From assembly GCA_028753945.1 (NCBI GenBank), contig JAPNXP010000005.1:4960001-5024000 (forward strand): DNA of 64,000 nucleotides, read 5' to 3'. This DNA comes from Hexactinellida sp. DTS-2022. Lineage: Eukaryota; Porifera; Hexactinellida. The translations under genes and the position numbers were made by a program. This document shows positions 23,757-47,255 of this stretch, in pieces (the stretch's first letter is position 1; each line of letters starts with the position of its first letter). The notes beneath the pieces were generated by a model. That model ran no database searches and had not been told where the DNA came from. It worked only from the letters and a program-made list of their open reading frames with translations.

Positions 23757-23908
23757 ATCAATTGCTAATCTCCAACAATAGAGAGTTATTTCAATAAATC
23801 TATAAGGGGACTGTATTGGTAGAAATTGTATAAAACATAAATTTAACTGAAAAAATAAAGTGATAAGTATAAAAATATAGTTTTAAATGGAAGTGAGCCT
23901 CGTATATA

Positions 23909-26900
23909 TTAATACTCCGTCTTCAGTTCACCACTGATATTTGGCACCGCGATGTTAAAGTGTGCGCCGAGTTGTCTCCCCTCTTCATAGAAGCGGTCCT
24001 CTTGGACGTTAAGGAACGCCCAATTTACTCTTTCGTGTTGGCGAGTCACGAGACGCATCTCGTAGTCTGCTACGGTTATGAAGTCTGGAATTGAGTGTTT
24101 GGGCTTTAGAAAATGGCCTGCGTTTTTCTTTGTCAACTAGATACACTCATTATAATAAGAGTTCGATTTGGAGTAATATACAGTAGAATTGCATTAGTAC
24201 GAACACGGTTAATACTATTTCTGTCCCCTTCAAAGCCTATTCAATACAAATGACACCGGTTAATGCGAATTCTGGATAAGGCGAACGCATTTTCACGATC
24301 CCCTGGTGTTCGTACTAACGAGGTTCTACTGTACTCTGTATAGAGACTTACAAAGGAAATAATCCCTGTATAGTAGGTCAATAGGAAAACTGAGGTCAGA
24401 AGCGCGAATAGGAACGACACGCCCGCGAATACAACTCCGTTATACGCGGTAGAAAGGAAAGAGTAGTGTAGGCCTATAAGGTAGACCTGTAAGCAACAAG
24501 GGATTATGTCGGAGGAGATCTGAGAGAAGGAGAGCTTCTTGTTGATGAGAGGAGGCTTTGACTCGTCAGTGTCCGATTTTGGATCGAAAAAAGAGTGTAG
24601 AAATATAGGAACACTCAAGATGACTTGTGTTAGCTAGAAAAGTATGAGTGACTAATCAGTTGGTTAGTACAGTAGATGTCGGATATAAGCACACCGGTTA
24701 TAAGAACATATCGGATATAAGAACACTATGTTGGAAAACGGTTGCCATATATGATATACCGTATATAATTTACGTCGGTTATAAGAACATGCCGGTTATA
24801 ATCTTATTAAGTGCAGTTCCCGACGATGTGCTTATAACCGGCATCCACTGTTATACAGTAGGTAGGTACCATTAGTGGTATGGCACTGCTGATCAGCTGT
24901 GAGGTGGGGAAGGCGTTAGTCCGCGCAGAGACCCAGCAGTAGAGGTACCGGCACTGAGAGGGAGTGGGAGAGGCCAACACCCCGAACAGGTCGATGTCAA
25001 TCAAGGAGACAACAACCAGACACAGCGAAATAGCTAGGGAGTAGGTCTTATAAAGTATAAGTTTATGGGATTACTTATACAGGTAAACCTCCCAAAGCGG
25101 CACCCATCGGGAGAATGATTTTGTGCCGCTTCTCGGAGGTTGCCGCTTTGGGAGGTTGCTCATAAGGCTAAACTCCCAAAGCGGCACCCATCGGGAGAAT
25201 GATTTTGTGCCGCTTCTCGGAGGTTGCCGCTACTCGGAGGTGCCGCTTTGGGAGGTTTACCTGTATATGGACCACACCTTTTCAATATAATCCCCGCAAA
25301 GTGGATTTTGATGGAAAAAAATTAACTTTGATTGTCGGGAAATTGCATTAGAAAAGGTGTTGACCGATATAAGCAATTCACAGATTTATACTAAATGTGG
25401 TATAATTACCATAGCCAAAGAAGAATAGCGGTATCGAGCACTTGTTGATGAGTGCCTCCTTCTTTGGAAAGAGTATGTGTAGCAGTTGGAATAGGGAGAA
25501 AGTCAGTAGCCAACAAAACACAAACACAAACAAAACGTGTGTTAGGATGCTTATAACATAACACACACTGTCGAATGGCACTATGAATATTCCTAGGAAG
25601 TTGCTAATCTCAGCCAGCAGCAGGAAGAACAGCACATGCAGCTTGAAGAATAGCTGGGGGTCCTTGTAGCGCTCGCGTGAGACATAAACAAGCCAAGTTA
25701 TGGAGACTATAATAGATACGAGCAGCATAACAGAGCTGAGTATGAATAGAATGAACGCAGCTATATCAGGCAGGGGGAAGCAGTTAGGATGCACTACCTA
25801 CAGAAATAGAATTCGGCTATTAATGCATAGGCACTATTAGGCAGATAAGGGAGGGTGCAACTCACAGGGGGCGTGGTTCCAATAACTCCTACAACCCCCA
25901 CTCCTGTACAGCTGCACACGATTCCTGCCTTCTGGAAATCTGTAAGACAAGCGTCCGGATTCCAGGACCCATGGTATCCTGTAGTGAACTCCCAAATGGC
26001 ACACATGTGATCTTCCTATATAACATAAAGCGAAGAAATAAGCGCTAATTTCACAGTTATTAGTCAATAACTCACAGTCCCTTCTTTCGTAGCAAACGTT
26101 ATATTTAGCAAGCATTCCTGTCCATTGTCCTGGTACCCAGTTGAGAACACCCCCACATACCCGGTGCTTACGCCGCTCCTGAGCTTCCCCTCGGGCCCCA
26201 CGTGAGGCGGCAGGTAGCGGAGCAGGAATGTGGCTGTGTCGTTGAGGTACGTGAGTCCCAGCTCTGTGGATACGGACTGCAGATAGCAGCTGTAGAATAG
26301 TATCGTGGTGGAGAGGTCGGGGCTGCCGGAGAACAGGTATGGACTCTGGATAGAACTGGTCGGGTTGGGATGCAGCTCAGTCGCTAAACAAGGAAATAAA
26401 CTCGCAGAAGGGCTATGGATACAAGTACAGTCAACTCCGCTTAATAGAGTCACCTCGGGACCAGGTTGCTTTGACCCGATTAAGCGGAGAAATCTATTAA
26501 GCGAAAATATTTTAAGCCAAAATGTAATTCCGTCCTATAAATCCTGCGAATTTTGACCCGATTAAGCACTGAAATCTATTAACCGGTGGCTCTATTAAGC
26601 GGAGTTGACTGTGCTTACCGATATTCTGTAGGTAGTTAGAGATTATAAACTGCGTGCTGTTAGCATAGGGTGTATTGAGTCTGTGCGTCAGACTGTTGAG
26701 GAGATACACCAGCTGTGAGGAGACAGCTGGCTGGGCGCCGCCTAGGGTCACCCACGCGTCGGAAAAGTGCGCCTTAGTCAACAGGTCGATTCCCTGCAGA
26801 ATGCTCCCAGCCACTGAATCAAGCGCAGCGCTGCTGATAGGCAGACAGGAGAGCAGCTTCTCGGCGGCGAGGAAATACTCAACACTCAGCTCTATGAAAG

Positions 26901-29900
26901 TATAATAGAAACAGTGTATAGTGAGTATATTAGGTATACAGACTTAAGTCCCCAGCCAGATGTATATTGACCCCGTATGAGTCCGCTATTACGTCTCTGA
27001 TGAACTGTAGCTCAGACAGGTAGAGAGATACGAAGTCGGGAAAGCAGTTATAAGTTGGTACCGCCACTGGGAATACTATTCCTGGCGTGGTGTCTACAGT
27101 GGAGCAGTCTGACAGGTCTGGGTACTGCCAGTCTCCAGCTGAGCTGCACACACGAGTCCCAACTAACAAACGCAACAAAAGTAAGTACAGTAGAACCTCG
27201 TTAGTATGAATCGCCGGGTAAGACGAACAGATATTTACATAAAATCAGGTCCATACAATGGGGCTATTCAATTGGTAATACTCCGGTTAACACGAACTCT
27301 GGATAAGACGAACAAGTTTGTACCGTCCGTTGGTGTTCGTATTAATGAGGTTATACTGTATAATGTATAAAGTACATACAAGCATAAACCTTTTGATTTT
27401 TGGGGACAGAGGACCCGAGCTGTTGCGTTCGGCTCAGTCTGCGGCCAGGTGAAATTGAACTGGTACACGTGCTCACAGGGGAATAGCGAGTGCGGCCTCG
27501 TTTCGATAGGTATAACCGCTCTGTCGAACACAGGGTTGGGCAGGTGTGTCTGGTCCGTACAACGGATGATTAACACGTTAGTGTACTTGGAGTCAAGGAG
27601 CTCTGGGTTTTTGCTAATGTACAGGTAGCCAGTGGAGGGCGTGACGTCGAATATGAGGTGTTGAGTTTCGAGAGAGTATTCAATCTGGTTTGTCTCGGGC
27701 AGATCTGCGTCCACACAGTGCACCTATACAAACAATAAATAATCCTTCTTAAGTCTTAAAGTGTGGTAGAACAGTGCTCACCTGTTGCAGCACTTGATTA
27801 ATGTGATTATCCTGGGCCTCGTTTATGTACACTATAACGGTGTAGTCATCTTTAAACTCGGGCGCATTATCATTAACATCCGTAACTGTAATACTGACAG
27901 ATGCCGTATTACTCGGCAGCATAGAGTGGATATCCACATTAACAGCTGTGATCGTGAAACTGTAGCTGGTTGTCGTCTCAAAGTCAAGTGGAAAGGTTAG
28001 AATAATGTGCTAAGCAAATGTTATTATAATACAGGGTATAGTACAATCTTGTTAACATACCCCATTGCTTGTCCCAACATCAAAGGCTCCTCCGTTAGAA
28101 CTGTAGGTTATAGTGTGTCTCCTCTCGGTCTCTGCTAGCACTGCTCCCACCGTGCTCTGTACAGGAGCACTCTCCGGTACAAACAGTGCGTAGGAGCTCT
28201 GTGAAGAGTATAGGTTAATTGGGCAGTAGAACAATAGTCAGTAGAACCTCGTTAGTACAACACGGTTAATACGATATTCCGATCAATACGAACACTATTT
28301 CAGTCCCCTTTAAAGCCTTTTCGATACAAATTACACCGGTTAATACGAATTCCGGATAAGACGAACACATTTTGACGGTCCCTTGGTGTTCATACTAACG
28401 AGGTTCTACTGTATAACATAGGATAACGAGGTTCTACTGTATAGCATAGGATTACCTCATTGAATACTGGGATGTATTCGCTATCCAACAGCACCACGAC
28501 CACATAGCTAGCTATCTGCTCGTGCAGTGTGTTGCTGCACTGCTCCACCAGATGGTACGTGAGGCGGTACAAGGGCTGTAGCACCTCAATCTCCCCTGAC
28601 ACGCCCTCCATCTCAAAGGGCCAGGAGCTGTGGTTAGCCAGCAGCAGGGAGTACGAGACCGCTAGAGACAGGTCGCTCATGCAGAACTGCAGAGGCAGCT
28701 TTAGCCCGGCCGGGTATGTAATGGGGAGGTACACCAGCTTGGTGAGCTCTGAGAAGTGAATTGACTTTATAACGTCTCTCTCGTAGCGAGCTAGCAGAGG
28801 GGGTGTGGTAAGGTCTCTCCGTCTCCTGCTCACACAGCGTGTTACGTTGAGAGATATAGAGTCCTTATAGCCAGTGCTGTCTTCTATAACCAGAGTATAC
28901 TGGAAGGGGTCAGTGGTGGAGAAGTCATCTGGGTCAACAGCTGATAGCATTACTGCAGAGGGAGTAATACACTGTATTAGTTTGTGTAATAAACTCGATT
29001 GTTGTAACTAACCTTGTGGAGTTGTGTTTGTAAAGATTAAAGGAGGATTTGTGTGGTTGAGGAAGTAGAAACTAACATAATCCTGTCCCATTGTGTTAAG
29101 GTTATTATCAGAGTATGTCAAATTTATAAAAGTATTATTTCCCACACAAAATGTTGAGGACGCTGTAAGGAAGGAAGGTGGATGGTTGACAATAATATCA
29201 ACGGGAACTGTCACAGAGTCTGACGTAGTGAGTTCTATCGCTGTCACCATTACCCGAAATGTAGTCTGGTTAGTAGAGCTGAGAGGAGAAATAACGGAGA
29301 TTGTCCCGTTGAGAAGATCCACAGAGAAGAACAGGTCGCTGGAATTGTATCTGGAAAGTACAAGATAGATACAAAGTATAAATAGTATAAATACCTCCGT
29401 ACCTTATGTCACTTGTAAAGTCCTCGTCGATAGCTGTGACAGAAAACTCCAAAAGACCAAAAGCTGTATAGTTAATGGTGAGATTATAGGGGAGCCCTGT
29501 GAAATTGAGAGGAAATTCTGGCTTGTCTATTATGGTGATGTTAACATCAATAAACAGAGTATGTACTCCATCTGTAATATTTATTCGGGAGAACCGCACG
29601 GTTTGTTTTTCTACTTCCAAGTTGTATTTGAAAATAGTCTGTATTTCGAACTTTCCATCGCCTAAGACGGTAGAGTCGTTAACACAGGGAAGGAGATTGG
29701 TACTGAGGTTGAACAGTGGGTCGTTCGAAATAGCTCTGATTTGTGCACCGAAACAACTGTCATTATCTTTGCATATTATCAAGCCGCCCGGGATCTTAAA
29801 CAGTACATTAGACTCTTCTATTAGCTCCAAAGAAATACTGAATTTGTCGCATGTAGGAGGCTCATCATTGTCATCCTGTATGTCTATAGTAATCAAGTTA

Positions 29901-32900
29901 TTCGAGCCGAATTTCCTGAAACCAGGTTCCCCGTTGTTATCCAATACATCAAGAAATATGTTGATCCTCCCGCCCCCTGTCTGGGCCTTGAGCACCTCCT
30001 TATCCACCTCGCGGACAATAGTGACCAGTCCGGTTTTGTTGTCAACAGCTACGTACTCCAGATTATTGGATCGCAATGTGTCCACGAGATAGAAAATCTG
30101 ACCGAATTTCCCGCAATCCGAGTCTGTGATTGATGTTGCGATGTTGCTAGTTTGATCAATGACTATTGGGAGGCTAGTTACGGTCTGGCTCTCTGAAATT
30201 CCATAATCAAATATTGGAAATATAACAGAGGATTCAACTGGTGCAGTAAGGTTCTCAGGGACTAGATGGATTTGGAAGTCGAATGAACTGAAAAGAGTAG
30301 ATTCGAGAGTGTCCTGGCAATTGAGAGTTAAGTTGTAGACAAGCTCATCGACACAGGGAGGGGGTACTATAGCCATGATAATACAAGCAGGTCCTGACGT
30401 AGTATGAATGAAAACATTGCTACCAGAGTTCATTGGGTTAGTTGATGGGTCGATAGAGCAAGTGAATTGTGTGAATAGGGAGTTGGTATCAGCATCAGAA
30501 CAACTGAGGTTAGCGACTACCCCAGTAGTATGTGACTGCAATATTTCAAAATAAGATTGGTTATTGAAATACTCAATCCTAGGAGGATTGTCATTAGCAT
30601 CTGCCACAGTAACTGTGAAGTTTACAGGACCACTGCTCAATGGAGGGACTCCAGTGTCCGTAACTTCAATAGTGAGTATAATAGTGCGGTGATCTGGATT
30701 CTCAAAGTCGAGAGAGGTGTTGAGGGTGAGCGTACCGTTGTTTGGGTTTAGTGAGAAGGCATAAGGGTATGGCTGTACAAATGAATATATCAAACTTTCA
30801 TTATGGTCAAACTGAAACACTGAGGTACGCACTTCGGCTACCACTCCAACTGGCTGAGACTCGCTTATGGGAATTGAAGTTTGGAAGAGGAAAGGTATAA
30901 ACTCATTCACGCTGAGAACATCAATTGCTATGCTGACTGTTTGGTTGAATTCAGGGCGAGTTGGATCCAAAATAATAATTAGGAGATCATAGTTAGTGAT
31001 CGCTTCATAATCGAGATTAGTGATTGTAAGAACAAGTTGGAATGTGGTATCCAAGATGTGAATCATCCGGACACTGAAATGCGTGCTAAACGAGGCTTGG
31101 CTTAGGAGTGCCGTTATGTTAGTGAAGGAATCTCGGTCAGTGCAGAATATACTGGTTGATATGTTGACTGAGGACATTGCCTCTGGGATAGAGAACGAGT
31201 CATTGGTATTGCAAATAGGTGGGTTGTCATTAAGGTCGGTTATTGTGGCTGTCAAGTGGATAGGAGAGGGGAGGGACATGGGACCTGTTAGCAGGGCATC
31301 TTGCACTTGTATTGCTATTGCCACAATAATCTCAGACTCATAGTCAATAGTCTCATTAACAAACACATCCCCAGACAGAGTATTTATGTCTAAATAGTTG
31401 TGGTCCATTGGATTTTGGTAGAGAATAGAATAGATGTAGGAACCATTCCTGGCACAATCCGGGTCGAACAGGATGGATGATACTAGGAACACAATCGTGT
31501 TAAGGACTTCGTTCTCTTTAATAACTAAAGAAACGTTGTTTGTAGATGCCACTGGGATATTTAAGTTCTGCGAAATTATCGAGGTGTTGAAGATAATTGA
31601 GGATGATAGCGAGTTGGCCGAGCTATCATTACAGACGATTAACAGCTGATACAACAGCTGGTCATTGCATACAACTATCTGATCTAGTACAATAAAGACC
31701 CCCAGCTCTGTGTGGTTGAGTGTGAATAAGGTTGTAACGAGAGGGGGTACGGAGTCAGTGTGTATGTAGCAGGAGAACGTGTCGCCTCTGTCACCATCAG
31801 ACACGCCCACAAACGCCACCACTGTACCGACAGCAGCACCCTGTAGGACGGCGCCAGGGGAGGGGGCGGTTATCTGAGGTGAGAACTCATTGACGTTCTC
31901 AACCGTAATATTAAAGTAGGCCTTTGCCACTTCAGGTGGAGACCCTGAGTCCTGTACTAAAACTCCGAACTGGAATATAAAGTCACTCTCAAAATCAACA
32001 GGAGTCAGCTGTGTGAGCTCTCCCGAGAAGAGACCTACTTCGAATTGGCTCGTATTGCCGACAGACAGGTCTATGGGCGTGAGTGTAGAGTTGTAGACAA
32101 CTGATATCAGGGCGTATGTCAACTGGCCGAATATACCTTTATCGAGATCAGAGGCGGAAATAGTGAATAGGAGAGTGGGAGGGGCATTTTCTGTAACAGA
32201 CAAAGTCGTTGGTATATTGATAAAGACTGGGGAGTTGTCATTTATGTTAACAACTAAAACTGTGACAGTTATCGTTATGTTAAGAGGTGGGCTCCCTCTG
32301 TCTGTTATCGACACCAGTACGGTGTATGACTCTGTGGCCTCGAAGTCCAGTGCCTGAGTGGGAGCTATGGAGATGAGAGAGTGGGAGGAGTTTATGGGGA
32401 AATTGGAGAAGAGGAATAGAGTGCCGTGGTCAGAGGAGAATGTCGTGTTCAGCTCTCCATTGAGAGCGCTGTCGATGTCACTGCAGATTGTAGATAGATT
32501 CATAACTGAGAGAGACCCCTCCTCGATTGAGACTGTAACAGAGCTATATGTGCAAGTGGGCGGGTTGTCGTTAGAGTCTTGGATCATAAACGTGACGTTA
32601 AACTTAATCTCTCTCTGAGGAGAGCCACCAGGGTTGTCCTGCACTAGAATTTCGAGCAGTAGAGAGGGAGGAGACCCGAAGAAAGGATCGTCAAAATCCA
32701 CCGGGCTTATCAAGCTCAAATCGCCCTGTGCAGACAAGCTAACAAAAAGAGAGACATTCGGGAATTGACTGTTAATGGAGAAAGTGAGCTGTCCAAAATT
32801 CTGACAGTCTCCGTCGCTAACGAACTGGCTTATATTCACAAGGTAGGAGGGGGCAGTTGTTGACTCGGATAGGGGGAACTGAATCGGACTAACGGACACA

Positions 32901-35900: not shown

Positions 35901-38900
35901 ACATCAGTTCTGGCTCTAATAGAGGAGTTGTACATATCGGATGCAATAACTGGTATTGTGAGCTGAGACTGAGTCTCTCTGTCCAAAGGGGAAGCCAGCA
36001 GCAGTTCTCCAGTCAGGTTATTCAGTTGGAAATAAGTGCTGGGATTTAGGAGGGTGTACAACACATCCTCGGAACTGTTGGTGATAATGTTGGTAGCCTC
36101 AACAGTGAGGATAATTATATCCTTCACATTCTCTGACACATTTCTGGAGTAGGCTGTCGGGAAATATATGTATGTATCATTCACAATAGAGATAGTCAGT
36201 TGGGAACTGGCGATGGTTTGGCTCACAGCTCCGTCCACACTCCTAACCACTGCCGTGGCCCGTACGGCTAGCTGGTACTCATCGCCGCTAGCGCCAATAA
36301 GGAGTGGGTTGTCGAGGGTAATAATACCGGTTGCACTGTCTATAGAGAATACACCATTCGTGGGGTCGGATATGAATGAGAAAGAGAGGGAATTGAACAA
36401 GTGTGATGAGGGAGAGAGTGATACCTAATAAATACCAAATAAATAATCTAACAGGTTCGCGTTTCTAATAATACTTAACATACTTGCTGTATAAAAGTCC
36501 CCATACCAGCGTTCTCCGCTAACTCAGCTGTATATAACGCCAGGACAAACGTTATGACGGGAGTGACTGAGACTGTAACGGTGGAGGAATCGCTTAGAGA
36601 CGGGTTTCCCTGGTCCTCGCAACGGATGTCTAAGGTAAACTCAGAGCTGCTCGTGAAACTAAGCGCACCTTGCAGCGTAATAATACCGTTATTGGGCCCG
36701 ATTCCAATAAAGCCTGAACTGGTGACTAGTGAATACCTACACACCAAATATGCAAGTGTTAATTAATGGTATTAATTAGGCGAATAAAAACTAACGTAAT
36801 TATGCCGTTATTCACAAAGCTGCCATCAGGATCGCTGCATTCCACTCTACCAATAAAATCATCAATATTGCCAGTCTCCAGCACTTCAAACGTGAATGGA
36901 GGGTTAACAAAGAAAGGCAGCTCATTGACGTCATCGACTATAACCAGTATCGCCTGTGTACTGCTCTTGTTCCCCCCGGCGCAGCCTGCCCCCTCAGGGT
37001 CCAGCTTGTCCGTCAGCTGAACGCTCAGAGTGTAGTCGCTAGTGCCCTCGTGGTCCAGCACTTGCGACACGGTAAGGGTGCCGTCCGAAGAGAGGGCGAA
37101 AGGGAGGCTGCCTGAGAACAGAATAGTTTTATACTAAAGCTACGAGATACGGGCACCCTTACTGGTGTAAATCCAAGCTAATTATGGAACAAATTTATAT
37201 CTTAAATTTTCCACAACTCGTTAAAAACAACATTTTTTGATTTTTGAATGATTCTAGAAACTATTGACTAGACACTGGGATTGCATGTGTACTAGCCATT
37301 CTATTTCTGAGATCCGGGAAATACGAGTTACGGGCACCCTCCGGTCGACAGTGCCCGGATAAGGGAGGTTTGAGTATATTGGTCGGGACTTACTATCTGT
37401 GTTTAGAAGCTGGAATATAAATTCCCCATGCAGTCCATGGTCCATGTCACTAGCCAGAAGCGGCACTGGGGGAGGCCCCGCATCGTTCTCTCTGACGTGG
37501 TACTCAGTAGTGGTTAGGACCGGGGTGAACTCGTTTACAGGAAGCACACTGATTGTGACGTCAATGTCAGCTGATAGCTGGGGGTCTGCGGGGTCTGAGA
37601 CTGTAATCTGAAACTGAACGCTTGTAATATCTTCATAGTCAAGCACAGCGTCTAGGATTAGTTGGGAATTCTCTTCCTAGGTAATTAATAAAGTAATGTA
37701 AGAATCAGATTAAGTAGAACGTACTCTGAACCTAGCATCTGCAATAGAGTACTGCAGACTGGATGAATACATATACACTGGGTGGTAGCACGTAATCTCC
37801 GAGATAGCTACGTCTGTCTGGTCCTCACAGAGAGAGACAGAGATTGGCGTCACGCATGTGAGAGCGTTAGGATTTGCAGAAGTTATATTGACTGTGACTG
37901 CTGCGTGAGCTTCTGTTAGGGGAGCTCTAGGGTCGATACAGCTTATTAGGACAGGAACAAAGGGCGTGTCCAGGGCGCTCAGTTCGCTGCTCACTTGAAA
38001 CTGAATACAGTGTTATAACATGAGACTCTACTTATGCACTAATCGACCAAAATTATTTGAATAATAGGAAAAATTTTCCAGACATAATAAGCTTCTTGTA
38101 GCGTATTAACGGCTGTTTACTCTGAAATGGCTTTAAATATCTTGCTATAGTTATAAATATCATAACCCTACGATTTTAAGTCATTTTAGTCCAATATTCA
38201 TGAAGTGGCATATAGTCCATCAAAATGTATAATAATAAAAAATGTTATTTTATTTTGGTTAAAAGATCGTTTTAATATATTAAAACTACTATTCGTGCGC
38301 GAATAAGGTTGTTGTTTTATTGTTAAAGTATAATAATTATATTCGAGCGCGAATAGTAGTTTTTATCAAAACACCTCATCATTTAATGTAAACATCCATA
38401 GTGAAGCATCTACAAATATTATTATGCTGCAAGAAACTTGAATGCATGAGTACAAATTGTTGTTGTTCAAATACTTTTGGCCGGTTAGTTATGTTTTGAC
38501 AAAAATGGTCCTCTCTACAAATTGGTCCGGGTGGACCATTTTTGTAAAAACATGTGTATCTGTCTTTACTAATTATGCTACAGTCAAAGTGTATACTGAA
38601 TGGAGTCTGCTTCGACAGAACGGCCCGTGCTAATCAACGGAGAGTTCCAGAGCGCCAAGACGGCAGGTGTGTCCGTGTGGGACACCACGCTACAGAGAGG
38701 GGACGGGATATTCGACATCATCTGCGTGGAGCGGAGCGAGGAGGGGCGGATCGTGTTGGTGGGGCTGGACCTGCATTTCGTGCGTTTGTTCCGCAGCGCT
38801 GAGCAGACGCAGTACAAGATAGCGCAGAGCAGGGAGCAGCTGGAGGGGTGGATGCGGGAGGTGGCCGAGAGGGGGGGCCCCGGGAAGATAAGGGTTATGT

Positions 38901-41900
38901 TCACGAGAGGGGACATAGAGGACGGTAGCGTGGAGGCCACGCCTCCGCGCGTGATAATACTCTGGCATCCGCGGTCACAGTATAGAGTCCCGGGGGACCT
39001 GCTGCCGCTGGAGTACCCCTGGAGCTGCGACAGGAGCAAGGAGCTAAGCCCGATAAAGTGGATGAGCTACGCGCCCAACATGCTCATGACGAGAATAGCG
39101 AATAAGAGGGGGTTCGAGGACGCGCTGCTGACAACACACGAGGGGTACGTACTGGAGGGACCCACCTTCACAGTGGCATGGCTCAAAAATGGAAATATCT
39201 TCCTTCCTTCTGTGAAAGAGATGAACATACTACCCTCTATCACTACAGCGATTGCGATGACTCTCTTCCATAATCTAGGTTTCAAAATAACCATTGGAAA
39301 GTAAGGAGTTATTATCCCTATTTTCGTACAAGGTTAGATATTGTGTAGATATCTGCTGGAGGAATTGCTGTCAGCTGACGAAGTGTTTGCGAGCTCTGCC
39401 ACGAGGTTACTCATCCCGATAGAGAGGATTGGAGATAGGAAGTTCAGCACAGAGCAAGGAATGAAACTGAGGGAGATTCTTAAGAAGGGCATTAGGGAGC
39501 GGGAGAATTGGATCGGGCATCTTACGTCACCCTACGACTTCCCATTAGACTCATAACCAAGTCTACAGAATGAACATAGAATTAGAAGATTTAGTTTCAA
39601 ACAAAACATTGATTATCCATAGTTTAGTTGTATTCTACCCATTGTATTTGATATCAGCGCACTAGTATGGTATTTCATTTGTTTTCCCATTCATAATCCA
39701 ATTTGAAACCTCAGTCAATATGCTTTAGTCTAGCTTTAGATAATACACGCAGTGACTGTGCCACTCAAAGACAATTAGTGGGCATAGAAAAGTTAATTAA
39801 TTACGCTTCAACATTCTAAGCGGAATATGTATGTACGTATTATAAATGTCTATTGAAATTAGATTAGCTCTACGAGTAATAATTTATGGTTTGCGAGAAG
39901 TGCGAGCAGAAACTAGGAAAGGTGCCGACTCCCGACGTGTGGAAGGACGGAGCTCGAAACACGGTCAGCAGCGGTAAGGTAAAACTCGGCGAGAACAAGC
40001 TACTGAGCGGGAAGAAGAGTCGGTTCTCTCCCTACTCGGTTTTCAAGTCGTGCCGTCTCTGCAAGGAGCAGCTGCACCAGTCCGGCTACAACTACTGCCC
40101 CGCATGCGCGTATAAGAAGGGAATTTGTGGGATGTGTGGGGTCAAAATATTGGACACTTCTAGTTATAAGCAAAGCACCGTGTAAGCAACAAGCTGAATA
40201 ATTATAATTCTAAACAGGAATGATTCCAGTAAACAATATTATTCAAGAAATATTAATTGATTTTCGTAAAACAAAATGATTCAACATTTTACCTACGATT
40301 TCTTTCTTGTTACTAATATATCAAATAATTAATTTGATTCGCAATTATAACTAGAACTATAATCACTTGATAACCATGTTAAAATTCATAACAAGTTCGT
40401 TGAAAATATCTTTCAAAAATTTGTTAATTCTGTTGAAAATTAACAAATAATTAACACTAGCTATGGCGTCATTCGAAGGCAAACCCGGTTTGCCATTCGA
40501 CCATCATCCTAACTTGTACCACGCGATCAACCATAGCTCCCATTCAGAAGACAGGGGCGTGGTGGAAGAAGAGTACGTTAATCTAATGGCTCTGGATTTC
40601 AACCAGAAATGTATAGTCCACAAGTGGCACATGCTGCAGAGCTGCATAGACATTGTACCGGCTAGAAGCAAGCACACGACGGTATCCTGGGACGGAGGCA
40701 TTTACACGTTCGGAGGAGATGATGGGAAGAAAATGCTCAACGACTTGCTGATGTTTAGGATCGATAAGCGCAGCTGGGATCGCGTCTACACCTGGGGCAG
40801 CCCCCCCTCCCCTCGCTACCACCACTCGGCCGTGGTATGCAGAGACAGCATGTTCGTATTCGGGGGCTACACAGGGGACACGAGCGCGCAGCTGAGGAAC
40901 CAGAACGATCTCCTGGAATTCAAGTTAGCTCACGCGGTTATTATACTGCTAACTGTGCACATATTATGCCTACACTTTATAGGTTCATCAACAGACACTG
41001 GGTAGACTGGTCTGACGTAATCAGAGACAGACAGCCGGCCAGCAGATCGGCGCACGGGTCCTGTGTCTACCAAAACTGGCTCTACGTGTTCGCCGGGTAT
41101 GACGGGACCACGCGGCTGAATGACATGTGGCGCATAAACATATCTGTGCACAGTTCCGTGCAGTGGGAGTCTGTCCGCCAGGTGGGAGAGAGCCCCCCTA
41201 CTTGCTGCAACTTCCCCATGACAACCATTAAGGACAATATGTATGTGTTCTCCGGACAGAGCGGGGCTAAGATCACCAACAACCTCTACCAGTTCTCCTT
41301 CACAGAGCAGGTAGGCTGAATAGAGTTACCACAGAGCTGTAGTGAGTCCCCTCTAGACCTGGACGAAGATCCAGACTGAGTACCTGCTCAGGTTCGGGCC
41401 GTACCCCCCGCAGAGGAGATACGGACACACCATGGTGGCGTACGGAGACAGCCTCTACGTGTTCGGGGGGTCAGCTGACGGGACGCTGCCCAACGAGCTG
41501 CACAAGTTCGAAGTGGAGTCCTGCTCCTGGGAGAAGATAGAGCCCGCCCCCGGGTCCCAGATCCCAAACGGGAGACTCTTCCACTCGGCAGCGATACAGG
41601 GCAGCAGGATGTACATATTCGGAGGGATGATTGACTCCTCTCCGATCCGTCTCTCCGACCTGTTCAGCTTCCACATCGCTAACTACCCTAAGTGCACGCT
41701 CCCGGACGACTTCGCCAGCCTGCTCAAGCGGGAGGAGTTCTGCGACCTTAAGTTTATAGTGGGGAAGCATGGCGAGGTGGTGTCAGCTCACGTGGCCATC
41801 GTAGCGGCCAGATCTCCCTATCTGCGGAAGCACCTGCTCAGCACTGGTATGAACAGCAGCCTGTTACGTACAGAGTTATACTGTGGCTCTTAGGTAACTT

Positions 41901-44900
41901 CTCTAACCCGGGTCCGGACGGGATCCAGTCGCACGACGTGTCTACACTGATTCTATCGGACCAGGACCCCGAGGCGTTCAAAATAGCTCTGCACTTCCTA
42001 TACACAGACCACATTATGTGGCCTAGAAGCACGTTGGATGACCAGAGCTCTCGACTAAGGTGAGCAGTGTACCCCCATAGAACCATTCGGTGTAATTTAT
42101 ACAGCCATTTGTAATTACGCTCCTAATCCTAGTCTGATCCAATTTCCATACGCCTAAATCACAAATTAATGTTGCGGTATAGGAGAGGATTCCAAATTTT
42201 GCAAAAATCATACTCCAAAAGGAGCGTCTCGCGCTCCTGGATAATTCATTGGAGCCATTATATATGTGTTGTGTATAGGAGTCTCAAGTGCTTGTTGGAG
42301 CTGACCAAGCTAGCTATCCTGCTGGAGACACAGAAGCTGGAGAAGCTGTGTATCCACTACATAGAGAATGCTGTGTGTGTGGATAACGTGCTAACTCTGC
42401 TCATTTCTGCTAACGAGCTGCATCTGAACCAGCTCAAGGAGTACTGCATTAAGTTCATCGTCAGAGACGGGCCCTACCAACAGGTAGTAATAATACACAG
42501 TGGGTTTCGTATAATTTGCACGAAATTCGCTTGATAATAGGCGAAAATTAGAGGAATATAATTCACATTAGATGCTCGCTTGGGGATGAATAGCAATAGG
42601 GCATTTGATATAAGGCTAACACCACTGTATGTATGGCTCTTATAACCGGGGTTAGGTGGTGATGCTCCCTGAGTTCGACTCGCTGGAGAGCGGGCTGGTG
42701 GTGGAGATAGTGCGTAAGCAGCTGAAACAGTCGCGAGGGGGGCAGTCCTCTCTGGAGCAGTACGGACAGTCAGAGAGCAGCTACAACCCGTCCGCACTGA
42801 CGCCGCAGTTCTACCCCTCCCTCGAGTCGGACCTGAAGGCGTTCCTGCAAGATCTGGGGCTGCAGTTCGCGGATATTCTGCTGCAGATCGGGCCTAAGAG
42901 CTTCCCGGCGCACAAGTGCATTCTAGCCGCCAGATGCAAGTACTTCGAGGCTATGTTCAGGTCATTCATGCCGACAGACGCCAAGGTCAACATAACATTC
43001 GGACAGGTGGGTAGTTATGCTAAGAAGGTTAGGAAATATTGGTATCCTAATCCATATTCAGTCCATGTTCGATAATCCTTATTGAAACCATAAATTATGG
43101 ATTATGGAATGGATTTCCAATTAAAAAGTCTATGACCCATAATCTTTATTGAAACCATAATCTTTATTGAAACCATAAATTATGGATATTGGAATTACAG
43201 TATATGTCGGATATAAGCACACCGGTTATAAGAACATATCGGATATAAGCACACTGTGTTGGAAAACGTTTGCCATCTACCCTGTATTATTTATGTCGGT
43301 TATAAGAACATGCCGGTTATAAGCACCTTAAGTGCAGTTCCCGACGATGTGCTAATAACCGGCATCCACTGTATTTCCTAATCAATTCCAAAGTCCATTA
43401 CCCATAAGGCCGTATGCTCGTGGTTACTGCGTACTGTGCCTATTCTAGATAGAGCCGTCCTGCCAGTCTTTCAGAGCGCTACTCAACTACATATACCAAG
43501 CGGACGTTAAGCTCCTGCCTGAGGACGCTCTCTATATCTTCCAAGCACCAAACTTCTTCGGGTTCAGTAACTCTCGTCTGCAGGTGTTCTGTAAGGAAGC
43601 GCTGGAGCAGAGAATACAGCGCGAAAATGTGATAAATGTGATGCGAATAGCGAGTGAGATAGGCATGGAGGAGGTGAAGAAATACACACTGGATCAGATC
43701 GTGTCTGGTTTCAATAAAGTGTTTGAAATGTCAGAATTCCAAGAGCTCTCTAAGGACCTGCTACTGGACATACTGGAGGCGTTGGCAAAGAATAATACTT
43801 GTTGAAATAGCAAGGAATTAATAGAGTGATAATACAATTATTGTTTCAGAAAGTGTTTCAATTCAATTTCCACTCCGTGATAACTCTTATCAGCAAATAC
43901 GCAAATTGTTAATTGCTTTTATTATTCTATTTCTATTACAGTTTACGTAAATCTTCTTATTAGTATGAATTAGTTGTAAATGAAGGCTTGCAGGAAATCA
44001 GCTTCGTTAACAGAATTTAGGCCAGTATACATTCGATCTGAAATAGAATAAAATACAGTTAACCTCGTTAATACGAATTTCCAGTTAATACATAGACGTA
44101 CTATACGTATACTATTATTTCAGTCCCCTTCAAAGGCTTTTCAACACAAATAATACAGGCTAGTAGGAATTTCAGATAAGGAGTACACATTTTGACGGTC
44201 CCTTGGTCTACGTATTAACGAGGTTCTACTGTAGTCAGTTAATAGATTCATTAATGACTCATGGCTCGCAATTGGATTCAGCGAAAGAAACAGGGGACAC
44301 AATGATATAAGGAACTTCTTAACAACAGTTAAGTAGCATAGGAGCGTGGTGCAAACAAATAGTGGCCTTGTAATAGGTGCGGCTACACAATTATTTACTT
44401 AGATTTCTAATAGCAATAGTATTTAACTGGTAGTTAGACATTATTCTGTGTAGTGAAGTAAGTAATCATTAAATCACAAGTTCGATTGAGTTCGAGAAAT
44501 ATCAGTGAATTATCAAGAACTGGCTATGTTAGAATATCACGGACTTTTGTATTCACAGAATATTAATTATACTAATTATTACTATACGCGTGATTAGTAG
44601 TATTAATGAGAAGTAATATGAGAATCACAAGTACACTGGTAGAACTTATAACTCACATTTCCGTGGTGGGATATATTGAAGAGACCCAGCATCTCAGTGA
44701 GGTAATACTCCACTAAGAAGCTGTGTGAAATGTCGAGCTGTGCTGTGAAATCTGTGCAGACGAAGGTGTATAGCGTGCCGCCTAAGGGGGCTGTCTCTTG
44801 TATCGACAGTTGCACCAGGTCTGGGGTTACGTACGGTCTGTAAGGCTCCTGGTTAGTTACGAAGTAAAGCGATATGTTCAGGGATCCTATTATACAGAGA

Positions 44901-45882
44901 TAGTGAACTCCCGTTATAACCAAGTTGGATATGATAACGAAATAACCGCTTATAACGAAATGGAGATTTTCCCCCCAGAGCACTAAATGCATTAATTATT
45001 ACCGCTATAACGAAGGAATTTACAGGTCCCAAGCACTTCGTTATAACAAGAGACTGTATATACATATGAGAACACAAGGCTACCTGAGATATGGGATATG
45101 TACAGGGAGTACATTGAATCTGATAGCGGTGTTATGAGGAAACGCAACGAATTATCAGCTAGGGTGACCTTATCGCTGTCCCCAGTCTGCAGTAGCGCGT
45201 AAGGCGCGTTGGAAGCGTGTATTAACCGCGGGTCTGAGAGGATGTCTAGATCTCCGATGAGCGCCCCGGGGGAGGAGGGGAGTGGGAAGTACATATCGAT
45301 GCTCTGACCTGAATGGATACATAGTATTAGTCCCATCAGAGATAGTAGTTAGGTAATTGCAAACATTATAGGCCACTGTACTGATAATTAACTGATATAA
45401 ATGGAATAATCATACAAGTGACTATCATACTAAGTATCAATAATAGAAGTAATTACAACATAATAACTTAATAGATTATAATACAATAAGTGAGAATTTG
45501 AACAATTTCTATAAAGAATCATTCTTAAATCAGTTTATAAGAAGAAAATTACAATTATTTCGCATTATTCCGTATATTATTAAGTAAATTAGTTTGTCTA
45601 CAATTTGCATCTAAGTACTATCCATGCCAGGACTCAACTGGTGGTATTCATGATAATCAAGTGTATTGTTCATTGTATTATTAAGCGAATGAGGAGAGGG
45701 GACATTTCTAACTTAAAAAGGCTTTGATTTATTCTCTTTCCTAGCATTATCAATAATTCCCAAACAAAACCTAACAACTGATATTGTAGAGACAGTATTA
45801 TTAGAAGTAACGCAATAATTCTTGTAATTTTAAACCAGAAGAGAACTGGAGTAGAGCATGTTTCGTAGAATTTTATCCACAT
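23909..45882 (-). CDS. giant cadherin-repeat adhesion GPCR (signal peptide - about 30 CA - HormR - GAIN/GPS - 7TM)
   Basis: Twenty-one exons, 4087 residues: 45771-45882, 45084-45308, 44657-44886, 37725-38000, 37394-37676, 36796-37111, 36484-36736, 29403-36424, 29013-29350, 28456-28952, 28061-28198, 27782-28009, 27390-27723, 26944-27162, 26619-26891, 26076-26383, 25866-26015, 25410-25797, 24870-25033, 24352-24633, 23909-24136. Every junction is in phase and reads through cadherin or receptor motifs. Exon 1 (hydrophobic RIIALLLIILSLQYQLLG leader, weak GTTTTG donor) is the least certain. Many D-x-NDN-x-P boundaries mark Ca2+-binding cadherin repeats. HormR, GAIN, GPS and a family-B2-like 7TM follow, as in Flamingo/CELSR, but there are no EGF or laminin-G modules. 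Likely a surface adhesion and signalling receptor. Three opposite-strand genes lie in intron 3. Confidence 0.85.
24179..24333. mobile_element. pogo/Tigger-like MITE, family A
   Basis: TA-flanked, tacagtagaattgcattagt to ctaacgaggttctactgta. It lies in the last intron of the adhesion GPCR. Removing it leaves 60 nt. Confidence 0.85.
24668..24853. mobile_element. pogo/Tigger-like MITE, family C
   Basis: TIRs cagtagatgtcggatataag and ataaccggcatccactg, with internal repeats of ggttataagaaca. A close copy is at 43196-43373. It lies in the GPCR intron 24634-24869, which would be about 50 nt without it. Confidence 0.85.
25078..25265. mobile_element. long-hairpin MITE, family D
   Basis: TA-flanked perfect TIRs: acaggtaaacctcccaaagc at the left, and its exact complement at the right. 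Internally a segment of about 65 bp (ccatcgggagaatgatttt, then gtgccgcttctcggaggttg) is present twice in tandem. It lies in the GPCR intron 25034-25409. Confidence 0.85.
25266..25376. mobile_element. short inverted-repeat element, family E
   Basis: Abuts the family D element. Ends accacaccttttcaatata and aaaaggtgttgaccgatata match the copy at 1010-1128. Both elements share one GPCR intron. Confidence 0.6.
26426..26612. mobile_element. pogo/Tigger-like MITE, family B
   Basis: From tacagtcaactccgcttaat to taagcggagttgactgt. It lies in a GPCR intron (26384-26618), its end only 6 nt inside the donor site of the exon at 26619-26891. Removing it leaves 48 nt. Confidence 0.85.
26619..27723 (-). other. 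last cadherin-like repeat, HormR domain and N-terminal GAIN of the adhesion GPCR
   Basis: Exon 27390-27723 ends a cadherin-like repeat (VHCVDADLPETNQIEYSLE) and opens the hormone-receptor domain with FNFTWPQTEPNATARVLCP. Exon 26944-27162 completes it with VGTRVCSSAGDWQYPDLSDC, the HormR consensus of cysteines and Trp. Exon 26619-26891 is the helical first half of GAIN. No EGF cysteine spacing or laminin-G sequence occurs between the last cadherin and HormR. The donor after exon 26944-27162 is GTCTGT, the same unusual donor as in GAK. Confidence 0.82.
27186..27361. mobile_element. pogo/Tigger-like MITE, family A
   Basis: From tacagtagaacctcgttagt to attaatgaggttatactgta, TA-flanked. It lies in GPCR intron 27163-27389, leaving about 51 nt of host intron. 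Confidence 0.85.
28236..28413. mobile_element. pogo/Tigger-like MITE, family A, with duplicated right end
   Basis: From cagtagaacctcgttagtac to actaacgaggttctactgta. Just after it, a segment of about 24 bp containing the terminus (ataacgaggttctactgtat) is repeated at 28420-28444. It lies in GPCR intron 28199-28455. Confidence 0.8.
29403..36424 (-). other. 7.0-kb single exon encoding about 20 cadherin repeats
   Basis: One uninterrupted exon of 2340 codons, flanked by 52- and 59-nt introns. Canonical boundaries such as LDVNDNRPVC, SDINDNPPTL, QDSNDNPPTC, VNINDNSPVF, TDLNDNPPIC and ADANDNPPRI alternate with degenerate ones (ENLARPKPF, VNLQDPLVS, QNLNIPVAS, PENLTAPVE). Boundary types recur every fourth repeat, pointing to a duplicated four-cadherin module. 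N-glycosylation sequons (N-x-S/T) are very frequent. No EGF, LamG or transmembrane segment lies inside. Confidence 0.88.
37128..37382. mobile_element. inverted-repeat element in an adhesion GPCR intron
   Basis: Intron 37112-37393 is filled by a stretch whose ends resemble each other in inverted orientation: ttatactaaagctacgagat with cgggcaccc at the left, and cgggcaccctccgg then gataagggaggtttgagtat at the right. Probably another pogo-like MITE, single copy here. It would leave about 27-50 nt, so the exact ends are uncertain. Confidence 0.5.
38277..38372. repeat. inverted repeat around gcgcgaata
   Basis: Arms aaactactattcgtgcgcga and its near-complement tcgagcgcgaatagtagttt, separated by about 55 bp of T/A-rich DNA. 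It lies between exon 4 of the adhesion GPCR and the aminotransferase gene, inside GPCR intron 3. It may be a MITE remnant. Confidence 0.5.
38494..38549. promoter_or_regulatory. inverted repeat upstream of the aminotransferase gene
   Basis: Arms gacaaaaatggtcc and ggaccatttttgta, about 20 bp apart, ending about 50 bp before the ATG at 38600. It could be a small transposon relic or a protein-binding palindrome in the promoter. Only the symmetry is seen. Confidence 0.35.
38600..39556 (+). CDS. class-IV (fold-type IV) PLP aminotransferase/lyase-like protein
   Basis: Two exons, 38600-39300 and 39349-39556, with a 48-nt intron in phase 2; 302 residues. Family features: GVSVWDTTLQRGDGIFDI (the substrate and turn region typical of branched-chain/D-amino-acid aminotransferases and aminodeoxychorismate lyase), ELSPIKWMSYAPNMLM with Lys153 as the likely PLP Schiff-base lysine, ANKRGFEDALL, and VLEGPTFTVAW binding cofactor phosphate. 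The N-terminal arginines typical of true BCATs are not obvious, so the substrate is unknown; an aminodeoxychorismate-lyase-like or BCAT-like role is possible. No targeting peptide is seen, suggesting a cytosolic enzyme. The gene lies inside intron 3 of the adhesion GPCR on the opposite strand and is followed by CRIPT on the same strand. Confidence 0.85.
39557..39885. other. intergenic spacer between aminotransferase and CRIPT
   Basis: 329 bp of AT-rich DNA with no recognisable gene, element or RNA. It must contain the 3' end of the aminotransferase gene and the CRIPT promoter. No TATA box stands out. Confidence 0.4.
39886..40185 (+). CDS. CRIPT: CRIPT, cysteine-rich PDZ-binding protein
   Basis: Single exon, 99 residues (human 101). 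It shows MVCEKCEQKLGKVPTPDVWK, a central lysine-rich segment (SGKKSRFSPY), paired CxxC motifs (SCRLC, YCPAC, CGMCG) that bind zinc, and the C-terminal SYKQSTV PDZ ligand, matching the YKQTSV end in vertebrates. CRIPT binds the third PDZ domain of PSD-95-type scaffolds and is also part of the minor spliceosome. The conserved PDZ ligand suggests that interaction is old. Nested, like its neighbours, in adhesion GPCR intron 3. Confidence 0.96.
   Translation: MVCEKCEQKLGKVPTPDVWKDGARNTVSSGKVKLGENKLLSGKKSRFSPYSVFKSCRLCKEQLHQSGYNYCPACAYKKGICGMCGVKILDTSSYKQSTV
40463..43805 (+). CDS. LZTR1: LZTR1, kelch-BTB-BTB adaptor of CUL3 for RAS-family GTPases
   Basis: Seven exons, 785 residues, phases closing: 40463-40923, 40983-41310, 41357-41846, 41894-42059, 42279-42483, 42656-43006, 43449-43805. 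Six kelch blades (HTTVSWDGGIYTFGGDDGKK, PRYHHSAVVC, SAHGSCVYQNWLYVFAGYDG, YGHTMVAYGDSLYVFGGSAD, LFHSAAIQGSRMYIFGG), then two BTB domains with BACK-like segments (CDLKFIVGKHGEVVSAHVAI; FADILLQIGPKSFPAHKCIL then CKYFEAMFRSFMP). Order and sequence match LZTR1 throughout, which targets RIT1 and RAS proteins for CUL3-dependent ubiquitination. The first three introns are 59, 46 and 47 nt; longer ones (42060-42278 and 43007-43448) hold repeats, while 42484-42655 holds nothing recognised. The whole gene lies inside adhesion GPCR intron 3, opposite strand. Confidence 0.95.
42092..42245. mobile_element. dispersed non-coding element, family F
   Basis: Inverted relative to the copy at 1524-1720; shares ctaaatcacaaattaatgtt and gcgcgagacgctcc-type blocks. 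It lies in LZTR1 intron 4, leaving about 65 nt when removed. Confidence 0.65.
43020..43420. mobile_element. older inverted-repeat element interrupted by the family C MITE
   Basis: Flanking the family C copy are inverted arms: attggtatcctaatccatat with tcagtccatg at the left, and tcctaatcaattccaaagtc with cattacccataa at the right. Between them, ttattgaaaccataa is repeated three times. The family C element therefore seems to have inserted into an earlier element inside LZTR1 intron 6. Confidence 0.5.
43196..43373. mobile_element. pogo/Tigger-like MITE, family C
   Basis: Near-identical ends to the copy at 24668-24853 (cagtatatgtcggatataag; taaccggcatccactgta), TA-flanked. Confidence 0.85.
44054..44233. 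mobile_element. pogo/Tigger-like MITE, family A
   Basis: From tacagttaacctcgttaata to attaacgaggttctactgta. It lies between the LZTR1 stop and adhesion GPCR exon 3. The rest of 43806-44656 shows no gene or element. Confidence 0.8.
44657..45882 (-). other. N-terminal exons 1-3 of the adhesion GPCR, upstream of the nested genes
   Basis: Exon 45771-45882 supplies the leader, 45084-45308 and 44657-44886 the first cadherin-like repeats (LSIQETAPLGGTLYTFVCTD; then LFNISHHGN at the donor). Splicing in phase 0 to exon 37725-38000 gives FNISHHGN-FQVSSELSALD followed by FVPVLISCIDP, a continuous cadherin strand order, which is the evidence that these exons belong to the same gene across the 6.7-kb intron. 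Intron 45309-45770 holds nothing recognisable. Confidence 0.72.
44906..45062. mobile_element. pogo/Tigger-like MITE, family I
   Basis: Ends tgaactcccgttataaccaa and cttcgttataacaagagact are inverted partners typical of pogo-like elements, with internal gcttataacgaaa. It fills GPCR intron 44887-45083; removal leaves about 40 nt. Confidence 0.7.
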
Positions 45883-46265: not shown

Positions 46266-47255
46266 TTATAACTGGCTGTGGGCAGTGAACACCTGTGAGA
46301 GTTTCGCATTTCTGCCGTCGTGCATGTAAATCGAATTATGCAAATAAAATTCGACCAGTTCCTCTACAGAGGCGAATTTCTTGGAGTAGGACTCTCCGAG
46401 AATGAACGAGTTATCCTGCTTTTTCTGCACGCGGAAATGTAGTATCTGTCTCTCGTACAAAATGGATAGCGAGTAGTTGCCCGAGGTTCTCGTCATAGAG
46501 GGACGCACTACGAACCCGCCCTCAACTCCATGCGTGAGCAGGTGCTGCTCTGCTTCCTTCCGAGACATGCCTTCCCTGTACCATGGATAGTCCAGCGGGG
46601 TTATCGGGTTAGCTTCAGTTTGCTGGGCGATAGGGGAGAGCGCGCGACTCACTTGTACAAATCTAGGGGGCAGGGGAGGGGGGCTTGTGAGCTCCGCTGG
46701 GGTCAGGAGAGTCTCCACTTCCTGGTGCATGTAGTCGTCGTCAAAGCTCAATTGGAGGTGCGCCCTGTTCGGCCTGGGGGGGATGCTTGAGGGGAGCCGC
46801 GGCAAGGTACGGACGGAGGGACGGAGATAGGGGGTGGGGGAGGGGAGAGGAGATAAAGCAGCAGAACTAGCCGTCCTGTATTCACAGGATAATATGTGTT
46901 TCGTAGCACTGTCAAGCTCTCCGACCCACTCGCAGCCCTTCTCATGCAATGTGCACTTGATTTTAAAAGAGTTTATAAGTCGTCGTAAGAACATGTCTTC
47001 CTTAACTTGTAACTTGGAAATGGAGACGTTGTCTAGCGGGCATTTGAGAGAAAACCCGGAGTGAGATATGATGTACCCGATACAGGGCTTACAGAATATG
47101 TGACCGCAATTCGAGATCTGCTGGGGGTCCCTACAGACACCGCTACAAATGGCGCAGAGAAACTGCTCGACATTGTCGATGAACAAATCCCCATCGTAGC
47201 CACCTTTTATTTTCCCAACAATGACCAACAGTTCTGGACATTCTACTTGAGCCAT
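46266..47255 (-). CDS. RING finger + TRAF-type zinc finger + SH2 domain protein (probable phosphotyrosine-directed E3 ligase)
   Basis: Single exon, 329 residues. Residues 34-75 form a TRAF/RNF41-like RING (C34, C37, C50, H52, C55, C58, C72, D75; CGHIFCKPC). Residues about 100-126 form a TRAF-type finger (CTLHEKGCEWVGELDSATKH). A proline-rich linker (about 136-200) contains SH3-ligand-like PPPLPPR. Residues about 225-316 are an SH2 domain beginning WYREGMSRKEAEQHL, with FVVRPS where Arg251 is the phosphotyrosine-binding arginine, then YSLSILYERQILHFRV. The expected role is to ubiquitinate tyrosine-phosphorylated targets. CBL joins the same two functions but with a different fold order, and I know of no common animal family with this exact architecture. 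The intronless form could reflect retroposition. Confidence 0.88.
   Translation of the reverse strand: MAQVECPELLVIVGKIKGGYDGDLFIDNVEQFLCAICSGVCRDPQQISNCGHIFCKPCIGYIISHSGFSLKCPLDNVSISKLQVKEDMFLRRLINSFKIKCTLHEKGCEWVGELDSATKHILSCEYRTASSAALSPLPSPTPYLRPSVRTLPRLPSSIPPRPNRAHLQLSFDDDYMHQEVETLLTPAELTSPPPLPPRFVQVSRALSPIAQQTEANPITPLDYPWYREGMSRKEAEQHLLTHGVEGGFVVRPSMTRTSGNYSLSILYERQILHFRVQKKQDNSFILGESYSKKFASVEELVEFYLHNSIYMHDGRNAKLSQVFTAHSQL

Follow-up and report, generated by a model that had tools for sequence, protein, structure and literature searches.

A probable giant seven-pass cadherin with a four-repeat periodicity and a GPS lacking H-X-S/T in a glass sponge genome

Flamingo, the adhesion receptor at the centre of planar cell polarity, has a cadherin-EGF-LamG-HormR-GAIN-7TM layout for whose origin sponges are a key group. 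Two other kinds of giant protein bear on the comparison made here: the FAT and Dachsous cadherins, which pass the membrane once and are not known to carry HormR-GAIN-7TM, and ADGRV1 (VLGR1), a giant adhesion GPCR with a long array of Calx-beta repeats. The receptor described below shares giant size, adhesion-GPCR type and a long array of repeats with ADGRV1, but its repeats are cadherins. In sponges and their neighbours the available part of PMC4818920 reports a full Flamingo with EGF and LamG in Oscarella and Trichoplax, a reduced Sycon Fmi that has neither GPS nor GAIN and spreads 22 exons over 20 kb, an Amphimedon AqCelsr3 without some domains, and no Flamingo in Ephydatia or two glass sponges. 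Forty adhesion GPCRs are described in Amphimedon, and the Figure 4 legend, which covers a selection of them, names no cadherin (PMC4302439, in part). The HRM-GAIN-7TM combination is older than animals according to the accessible text of PMC12716839, where the word 'cadherin' appears only among the references, and the transcriptome of the choanoflagellate C. hollandica encodes a protein with Cadherin, GPS and 7tm_2 (PMC6040629, in part).

The window analysed here, 64,000 nucleotides of contig JAPNXP010000005.1 of the glass sponge Hexactinellida sp. DTS-2022, holds a minus-strand locus (45882-23909) that is probably one gene for a giant seven-pass cadherin, with a signal peptide, about 31 cadherin-like repeats, HormR, GAIN-GPS, 7TM and a short tail. 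In the predicted gene model it is like Flamingo/Starry night/CELSR1-3 (ADGRC) in having cadherin repeats, HormR, GAIN-GPS and 7TM in the same order. Unlike Flamingo/CELSR, it has about 31 repeats versus 9, a divergent 7TM, a short tail and a period-4 array, and it is without EGF-like or laminin G modules between the cadherins and HormR. Its many exons in about 20 kb resemble Sycon Fmi (available part of PMC4818920), its repeat number is comparable to FAT and Dachsous (34 and 27 in fly; available part of PMC11497213), and the presence of Cadherin, GPS and 7TM in one chain recalls the C. hollandica protein as its domains are described in the accessible part of PMC6040629. The cadherin-only layout appears to be new for a receptor of the Flamingo kind, and the period-4 super-repeat and the GPS without H-X-S/T are further features first noted here; no report of a giant seven-pass receptor carrying only cadherins was found in the literature searched, which lay mostly outside subscription journals and does not prove absence.

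After hand curation of gene-finder output the predicted gene has 21 exons and 4076 residues (12231 coding bases in 21974); every intron is GT-AG, the phases are consistent and there are no internal stops. The gene finder, a dynamic-programming procedure with an order-4 coding model and splice scores trained on the long frames of the window, was limited to 46000-23850, the span of an earlier sequence-only reading, and 44560-38060 was masked because plus-strand genes lie there. Two of three parameter settings gave 21 exons and 4090 aa on the minus strand with no internal stops, and the third gave 23 exons and 4042 aa. Without masking, the first run split the locus, and when it was forced as one gene internal stops appeared in at least three of four models. 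Curation touched exon 1, the junctions of exons 2/3 and 13/14 and the donor of exon 5 (37325, score -1.9, was dropped in favour of 37394, score 2.0), and one repeat-derived exon was removed. An extra exon proposed by the gene finder (25277-25188) is overlapped by a tandem repeat and breaks TM4, and its removal leaves exons 18 and 19 in phase with each other. The model is least secure at exon 1, whose donor scores -1.7, at the exon 2/3 junction, where several choices exist, and at the donor of exon 14, which scores -1.8. The sequence-only reading had counted 21 exons with mutually consistent phases and 4087 residues; exon number and phases are the same here, and the 11-residue difference may be read beside the several choices at the exon 2/3 junction. 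That reading mentions neither the loss of H-X-S/T, the genes inside intron 3, the super-repeat nor the lone furin-like site. The exons of the curated model are as follows.

45771..45882, minus strand: exon 1, with the start codon and a stretch resembling a signal peptide (19-residue hydropathy 1.52); weak donor, least certain exon
45084..45308, minus strand: exon 2, most of EC1 (tentative; EC1 scores no better than shuffles)
44657..44886, minus strand: exon 3, end of EC1 and first half of EC2 (profile positions 3-54)
38001..44656, minus strand: intron 3, 6656 bp, host to three plus-strand genes
37725..38000, minus strand: exon 4, second half of EC2 and first half of EC3 (profile positions 63-105)
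37676-37394, 37111-36796 and 36736-36484, minus strand: exons 5-7, EC3 to the start of EC6
29403..36424, minus strand: exon 8, 7022 bp, EC6 to the start of EC27 (Pfam Cadherin, E 3e-110)
29350-29013 and 28952-28456, minus strand: exons 9-10, remainder of EC27 plus the tentative EC28 and EC29; domain continuity is weakest here
28198-28061 and 28009-27782, minus strand: exons 11-12, EC30 and the start of EC31
27390..27723, minus strand: exon 13, which completes EC31 and begins HormR (first half) in the same frame
26944..27162, minus strand: exon 14, remainder of HormR and start of GAIN; weak donor
26891-26619 and 26383-26076, minus strand: exons 15-16, GAIN
25866..26015, minus strand: exon 17, GPS motif with G-V-G (25904-25896) at the H-X-S/T site (Pfam GPS, E 0.0018)
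25797-25410, 25033-24870 and 24633-24352, minus strand: exons 18-20, seven transmembrane segments
23909..24103, minus strand: exon 21, short cytoplasmic tail and stop codon, 73 residues after the TM7 stretch

The open frame of exon 8 spans 2384 aa, far beyond chance, as 30 mononucleotide shuffles gave no frame longer than 206 aa. The minus-strand frame at 22035-23882, which directly follows the receptor, encodes 616 aa of degenerate acidic repeats without a Pfam match and may be a separate gene or an alternative tail; its use as the cytoplasmic tail came from the first gene-finder model with an internal stop and stays a possibility rather than a part of the model. On the other side, at 46266-47255 (minus strand), a 329-aa frame carries a RING finger near its start (E 7e-6) and SH2 near its end (E 5e-17), an apparently unusual combination in one protein. 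A dispersed repeat, AGTAGAACCTCGTTARTACGAACACC (up to 3 mismatches), is found in four receptor introns (24305-24330, 27332-27357, 28385-28410 and 44205-44230, minus strand) and in none of 100 shuffles, and translated stretches similar to it occur in the C5 and C13 loci.

Judged from the sequence, the locus is very probably one gene. The critical junction between cadherin and HormR lies within exon 13 and is not a splice: taken by itself, this exon has a Pfam Cadherin match at residues 2-60 (E 0.0025), followed in the same frame by an HRM match at 83-109 (E 0.047), so the last cadherin and the first half of HormR are joined without splicing and leave no room for EGF or LamG. The claim that cadherins run straight into HormR-GAIN-7TM as one giant adhesion GPCR is thereby supported in the predicted gene model. 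For the introns within the array (introns 3-12), a profile was built without the repeat concerned, and the two pieces of that repeat were scored apart and joined. The joined repeat exceeded the sum of its pieces at seven of the ten (introns 3, 5, 6, 7, 8, 11 and 12); at intron 4 it reached 43.4, where one piece gave 41.0 and the two together summed to 48.2, and introns 9 and 10 (EC28; EC29/30 border) were uninformative. No strong membrane segment was found upstream of the receptor core (residues 41-3700), where the best 19-residue hydropathy, 1.71, falls inside cadherin repeats.

The weakest domain support lies in the EC28/29 stretch, and two genes could have been wrongly joined there, one for a cadherin without a membrane segment, the other for a cadherin-HormR GPCR that begins in exon 10. 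Exon 10 has an early ATG, exon 9 if unspliced meets a stop just after 29011, and the first gene-finder run divided the locus in the exon 9/10 region. Nevertheless, the 60-bp intron 9 has good splice scores on both sides (3.8 and 3.2), the putative upstream protein would be left without a strong membrane segment, and exon 13 still links cadherin and HormR, which makes such a split very unlikely and means that even then the receptor has cadherins. A start near 38.0 kb, with exons 1-3 belonging to another gene, is also unlikely, if a shade less so. The 6.7-kb intron 3 hosts three opposite-strand genes at 38600-43802 (in Pfam terms a class IV aminotransferase, Aminotran_4; a CRIPT-like gene; and an LZTR1-like kelch-BTB-BACK gene), and the joined EC2 taken alone gets no Pfam cadherin match. 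However, with a profile built without EC1-3, exons 3 and 4 fill complementary positions (3-54 and 63-105), and the EC2 pieces, at 13.8 and 13.7 bits apart, score 36.3 bits when joined.

The array was segmented into 31 cadherin-like repeats, with boundaries set by hand from profile matches, compared with eight to nine in Flamingo/CELSR; Pfam Cadherin stretches numbered 4, 13 and 3 in three slightly overlapping protein pieces. In a leave-one-out test, 27 of the 31 repeats lay more than 5 bits over the best of 100 shuffles, in agreement with the about 30 cadherins claimed earlier. EC1 (1.4), EC26 (5.7), EC28 (3.6) and EC29 (1.8) failed; EC26 sits in the duplicated region and was placed by alignment with its block. 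A Pfam scan of the receptor protein found neither EGF nor LamG at E<=1, which, together with the shared exon, bears out the reported absence of both between the last cadherin and HormR. The array is 25-53% identical to other cadherin frames of the same genome, and the matches of the cadherin block to the PDB are many and generic; CELSR1 as the top match of the array was set aside, since its score adds up six stretches of a chain 2232 aa long. The receptor has 91 N-glycosylation sequons, twice the mean of 45 in shuffles.

All-versus-all alignment of ECs 2-31 revealed a periodicity of four, with mean scores of 52.2 at lag 4 and 49.4 at lag 8, 41.3 at lag 2, and 28-35 at lags 1, 3, 5, 6 and 7. 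In ECs 12-27, a range chosen after inspection, the period-4 statistic was 38.6, a value reached in none of 20000 permutations (maximum 31.1); a period-2 component (24.6) is also present. The four-repeat blocks are located as follows.

33236..34612, minus strand: block 1, EC12-15
31880..33235, minus strand: block 2, EC16-19
30584..31879, minus strand: block 3, EC20-23
29513..30583, minus strand: block 4, EC24-26 (EC26 weak), with EC27 following across intron 8

The super-repeat indicates growth of this stretch by duplication of blocks, and the 26-30% identity of the later blocks to the first indicates that the duplications are old. It also suggests that the growth of the array was lineage-specific and that its size would be a derived trait. 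Each block opens with a cysteine-bearing A repeat. By rough sequence patterns, on which the calcium-motif calls rest, all four A-type repeats are without the LDRE-like and DxND linker patterns, and all four of the following B-type repeats have both. The strict DxND pattern is present in no more than 13 of the 31 linkers, and motif-poor linkers therefore also occur elsewhere than between A and B repeats. In non-classical cadherins completely or partially calcium-free linkers bend (work cited in PMC8325961, available in part), and by analogy a hinge is predicted at the motif-poor linkers here. Within the duplicated region the rod would then hinge at least about every fourth repeat, a clear structural prediction given the regular placing of these linkers. 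An AlphaFold model of the four blocks was too poor to use (pLDDT 41.8).

Behind the array, the HRM match obtained with exons 13 and 14 joined (E 2e-4, 22.0 bits) is below the curated Pfam cut-off of 26.2, and the GPS match (E 0.009, 17.0 bits in a long piece; E 0.0018, 19.2 bits in a separate scan) reaches the cut-off of 22.5 in neither scan. The Pfam GAIN model had no match in the receptor. The GPS is located where expected, before the 7TM, and we judge that GAIN and GPS of an adhesion GPCR are present. In phmmer comparison with human receptor chains, the GAIN-GPS-TM1-4 part matched ADGRG6 (8e-7), G3 (6e-6) and D1 (3e-4), and the 7TM alone gave 0.013 (D1). The 7TM had no Pfam match at E<=10, 7tm_2 included; this may partly reflect the filters of hmmscan, since the C5 receptor (2e-17 in the 7tm_2 profile search) was also unlisted as 7tm_2 by that program. 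A profile of 14 receptors from the same genome aligned TM1-TM5 over exons 18-20 with 19.3 bits, compared with at most 2.0 in 500 block shuffles, and its controls scored below zero (the reversed sequence, a frizzled-like receptor and a neighbouring frame that we take to be DHHC-like). Six of the seven segments pass a hydropathy of 1.6, TM6 being at 1.19, so that TM6 and TM7 are placed by hydropathy, TM6 weakly. The profile and hydropathy together point to a class B2 seven-transmembrane core, and with GAIN-GPS and seven segments the receptor differs from the single-transmembrane FAT/Dachsous type. It has no close paralogue in its own genome: besides itself, only cadherins and, weakly, the HormR domains of C11 receptors match at E<=1.

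The GPS reads CAIWEF...CSCTGVGVVGVI, with G-V-G in place of H-X-S/T, whose histidine and serine/threonine carry out the chemistry of autoproteolysis (PMC13062082, in part). The H-X-S/T motif is kept in all 20 other GPS sites sampled in the same genome, a sample of 18 of the 27 GPS profile matches and two sites beside GAIN matches that is biased to conserved sites and includes near-duplicates. Loss of the motif is not rare, as it is also absent in 10 of 32 human aGPCRs, and CELSR1 and CELSR3 are described as naturally autoproteolysis-resistant (both in the available part of PMC13062082). With its GPS lacking H-X-S/T, the receptor should not cut itself and is most likely autoproteolysis-dead. 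The usual tethered agonist carries a phenylalanine and a methionine, and both are absent here. The ectodomain has one match to R-X-R/K-R:

28816..28827, minus strand: RRRR, between EC28 and EC29

Composition predicts 0.09 such sites, and RRRR occurred in 6 of 2000 shuffles; a furin-type cut at this position is possible.

In outline, the receptor would most likely work like Flamingo, with the cadherin rod binding cadherins on neighbouring cells, and binding or tension would be passed via HormR-GAIN to the 7TM core. If it signals at all, it would do so with the ectodomain still attached or by contacts other than the canonical tethered agonist. Two traits would set it apart: a block-duplicated rod with motif-poor linkers, and a GPS without H-X-S/T. 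The receptor offers a direct test of whether Flamingo can shed its EGF/LamG half and self-cleavage and yet work, or whether seven-pass cadherins arose more than once.

A search of the genome (112.4 Mb, 18 contigs), in which 71 7tm_2, 12 HRM and 27 GPS matches were compared with 27 cadherin clusters, revealed no canonical CELSR. Only C5:262939 lies within 100 kb downstream of a cadherin cluster on the same strand, and this receptor frame has its own signal-like start and EGFs. The C13 locus was considered as the CELSR of this genome and rejected, as it reads FAT-like, with one membrane pass (by eye) and then a separate frame whose description as frizzled-like is a reading of the sequence and not a Pfam result. 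The FAT-like gene of the genome carries EGF and LamG. The clusters were grouped by hand and 150 of 492 cadherin candidates were scored, and PF00002 misses the receptor of the window itself; a divergent CELSR could therefore be overlooked.

Overall, the receptor is most likely a lineage-specific, autoproteolysis-dead seven-pass cadherin. As to its descent, one possible reading, somewhat less likely than not, is an origin separate from Flamingo, in which a giant block-duplicated cadherin array was joined to a HormR-GAIN-7TM core without self-cleavage in an animal without a canonical Flamingo. It may instead be the Flamingo/CELSR orthologue of this animal, which would have lost EGF, LamG and the GPS nucleophile and enlarged its cadherin array, a serious possibility though hardly a probable one. 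Reduced sponge forms such as Sycon Fmi and AqCelsr3 are published (available part of PMC4818920), no canonical CELSR was seen among the receptor matches and cadherin clusters compared, the one cluster-associated frame having its own start and EGFs, and no single place in the genome (39 candidates) reached the cut-off of the Pfam CELSR2 ninth-cadherin model. The only PDB match of HormR was to CELSR1, but at E 0.15 it is not significant, and the GPS part matched ADGRG3, not CELSR1. The PDB matches, in the best 60 of 71, offered no CELSR 7TM for comparison. The last cadherin does match CELSR2_9th (PF23592, E 0.012), yet this is not specific, because a FAT-like protein of the same genome used as control scores higher (E 2e-9, 37.8 bits, over the whole-protein cut-off), and the incomplete scoring of cadherin candidates weakens the argument from absence. 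That the receptor is a cadherin GPCR of ancestral type, older than the acquisition of EGF and LamG, is improbable. The C. hollandica Cadherin-GPS-7tm_2 protein (PMC6040629, in part) and the placing of HRM-GAIN-7TM before animals (PMC12716839, in part) would suit it, but Oscarella and Trichoplax have the full Flamingo with EGF and LamG (available part of PMC4818920), and the super-repeat and the missing GPS motif look derived. The sequence-only reading had left the choice between an ancestral type and a lineage-specific expansion; the period-4 super-repeat of ECs 12-27 favours expansion as far as array size is concerned, whereas the missing EGF/LamG fits primitive absence, loss or independent fusion alike.

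Elsewhere in the genome, at C4:404998-407599 (minus strand), a 7tm_2 match precedes PIP5K on the same strand, probably as parts of a GPCR-PIPK. On C5, two long cadherin frames (3577 and 3587 aa; C5:275975-280648 and C5:1086928-1092234, minus strand) agree in their profile patterns, lie about 0.8 Mb apart and possibly represent a duplication.
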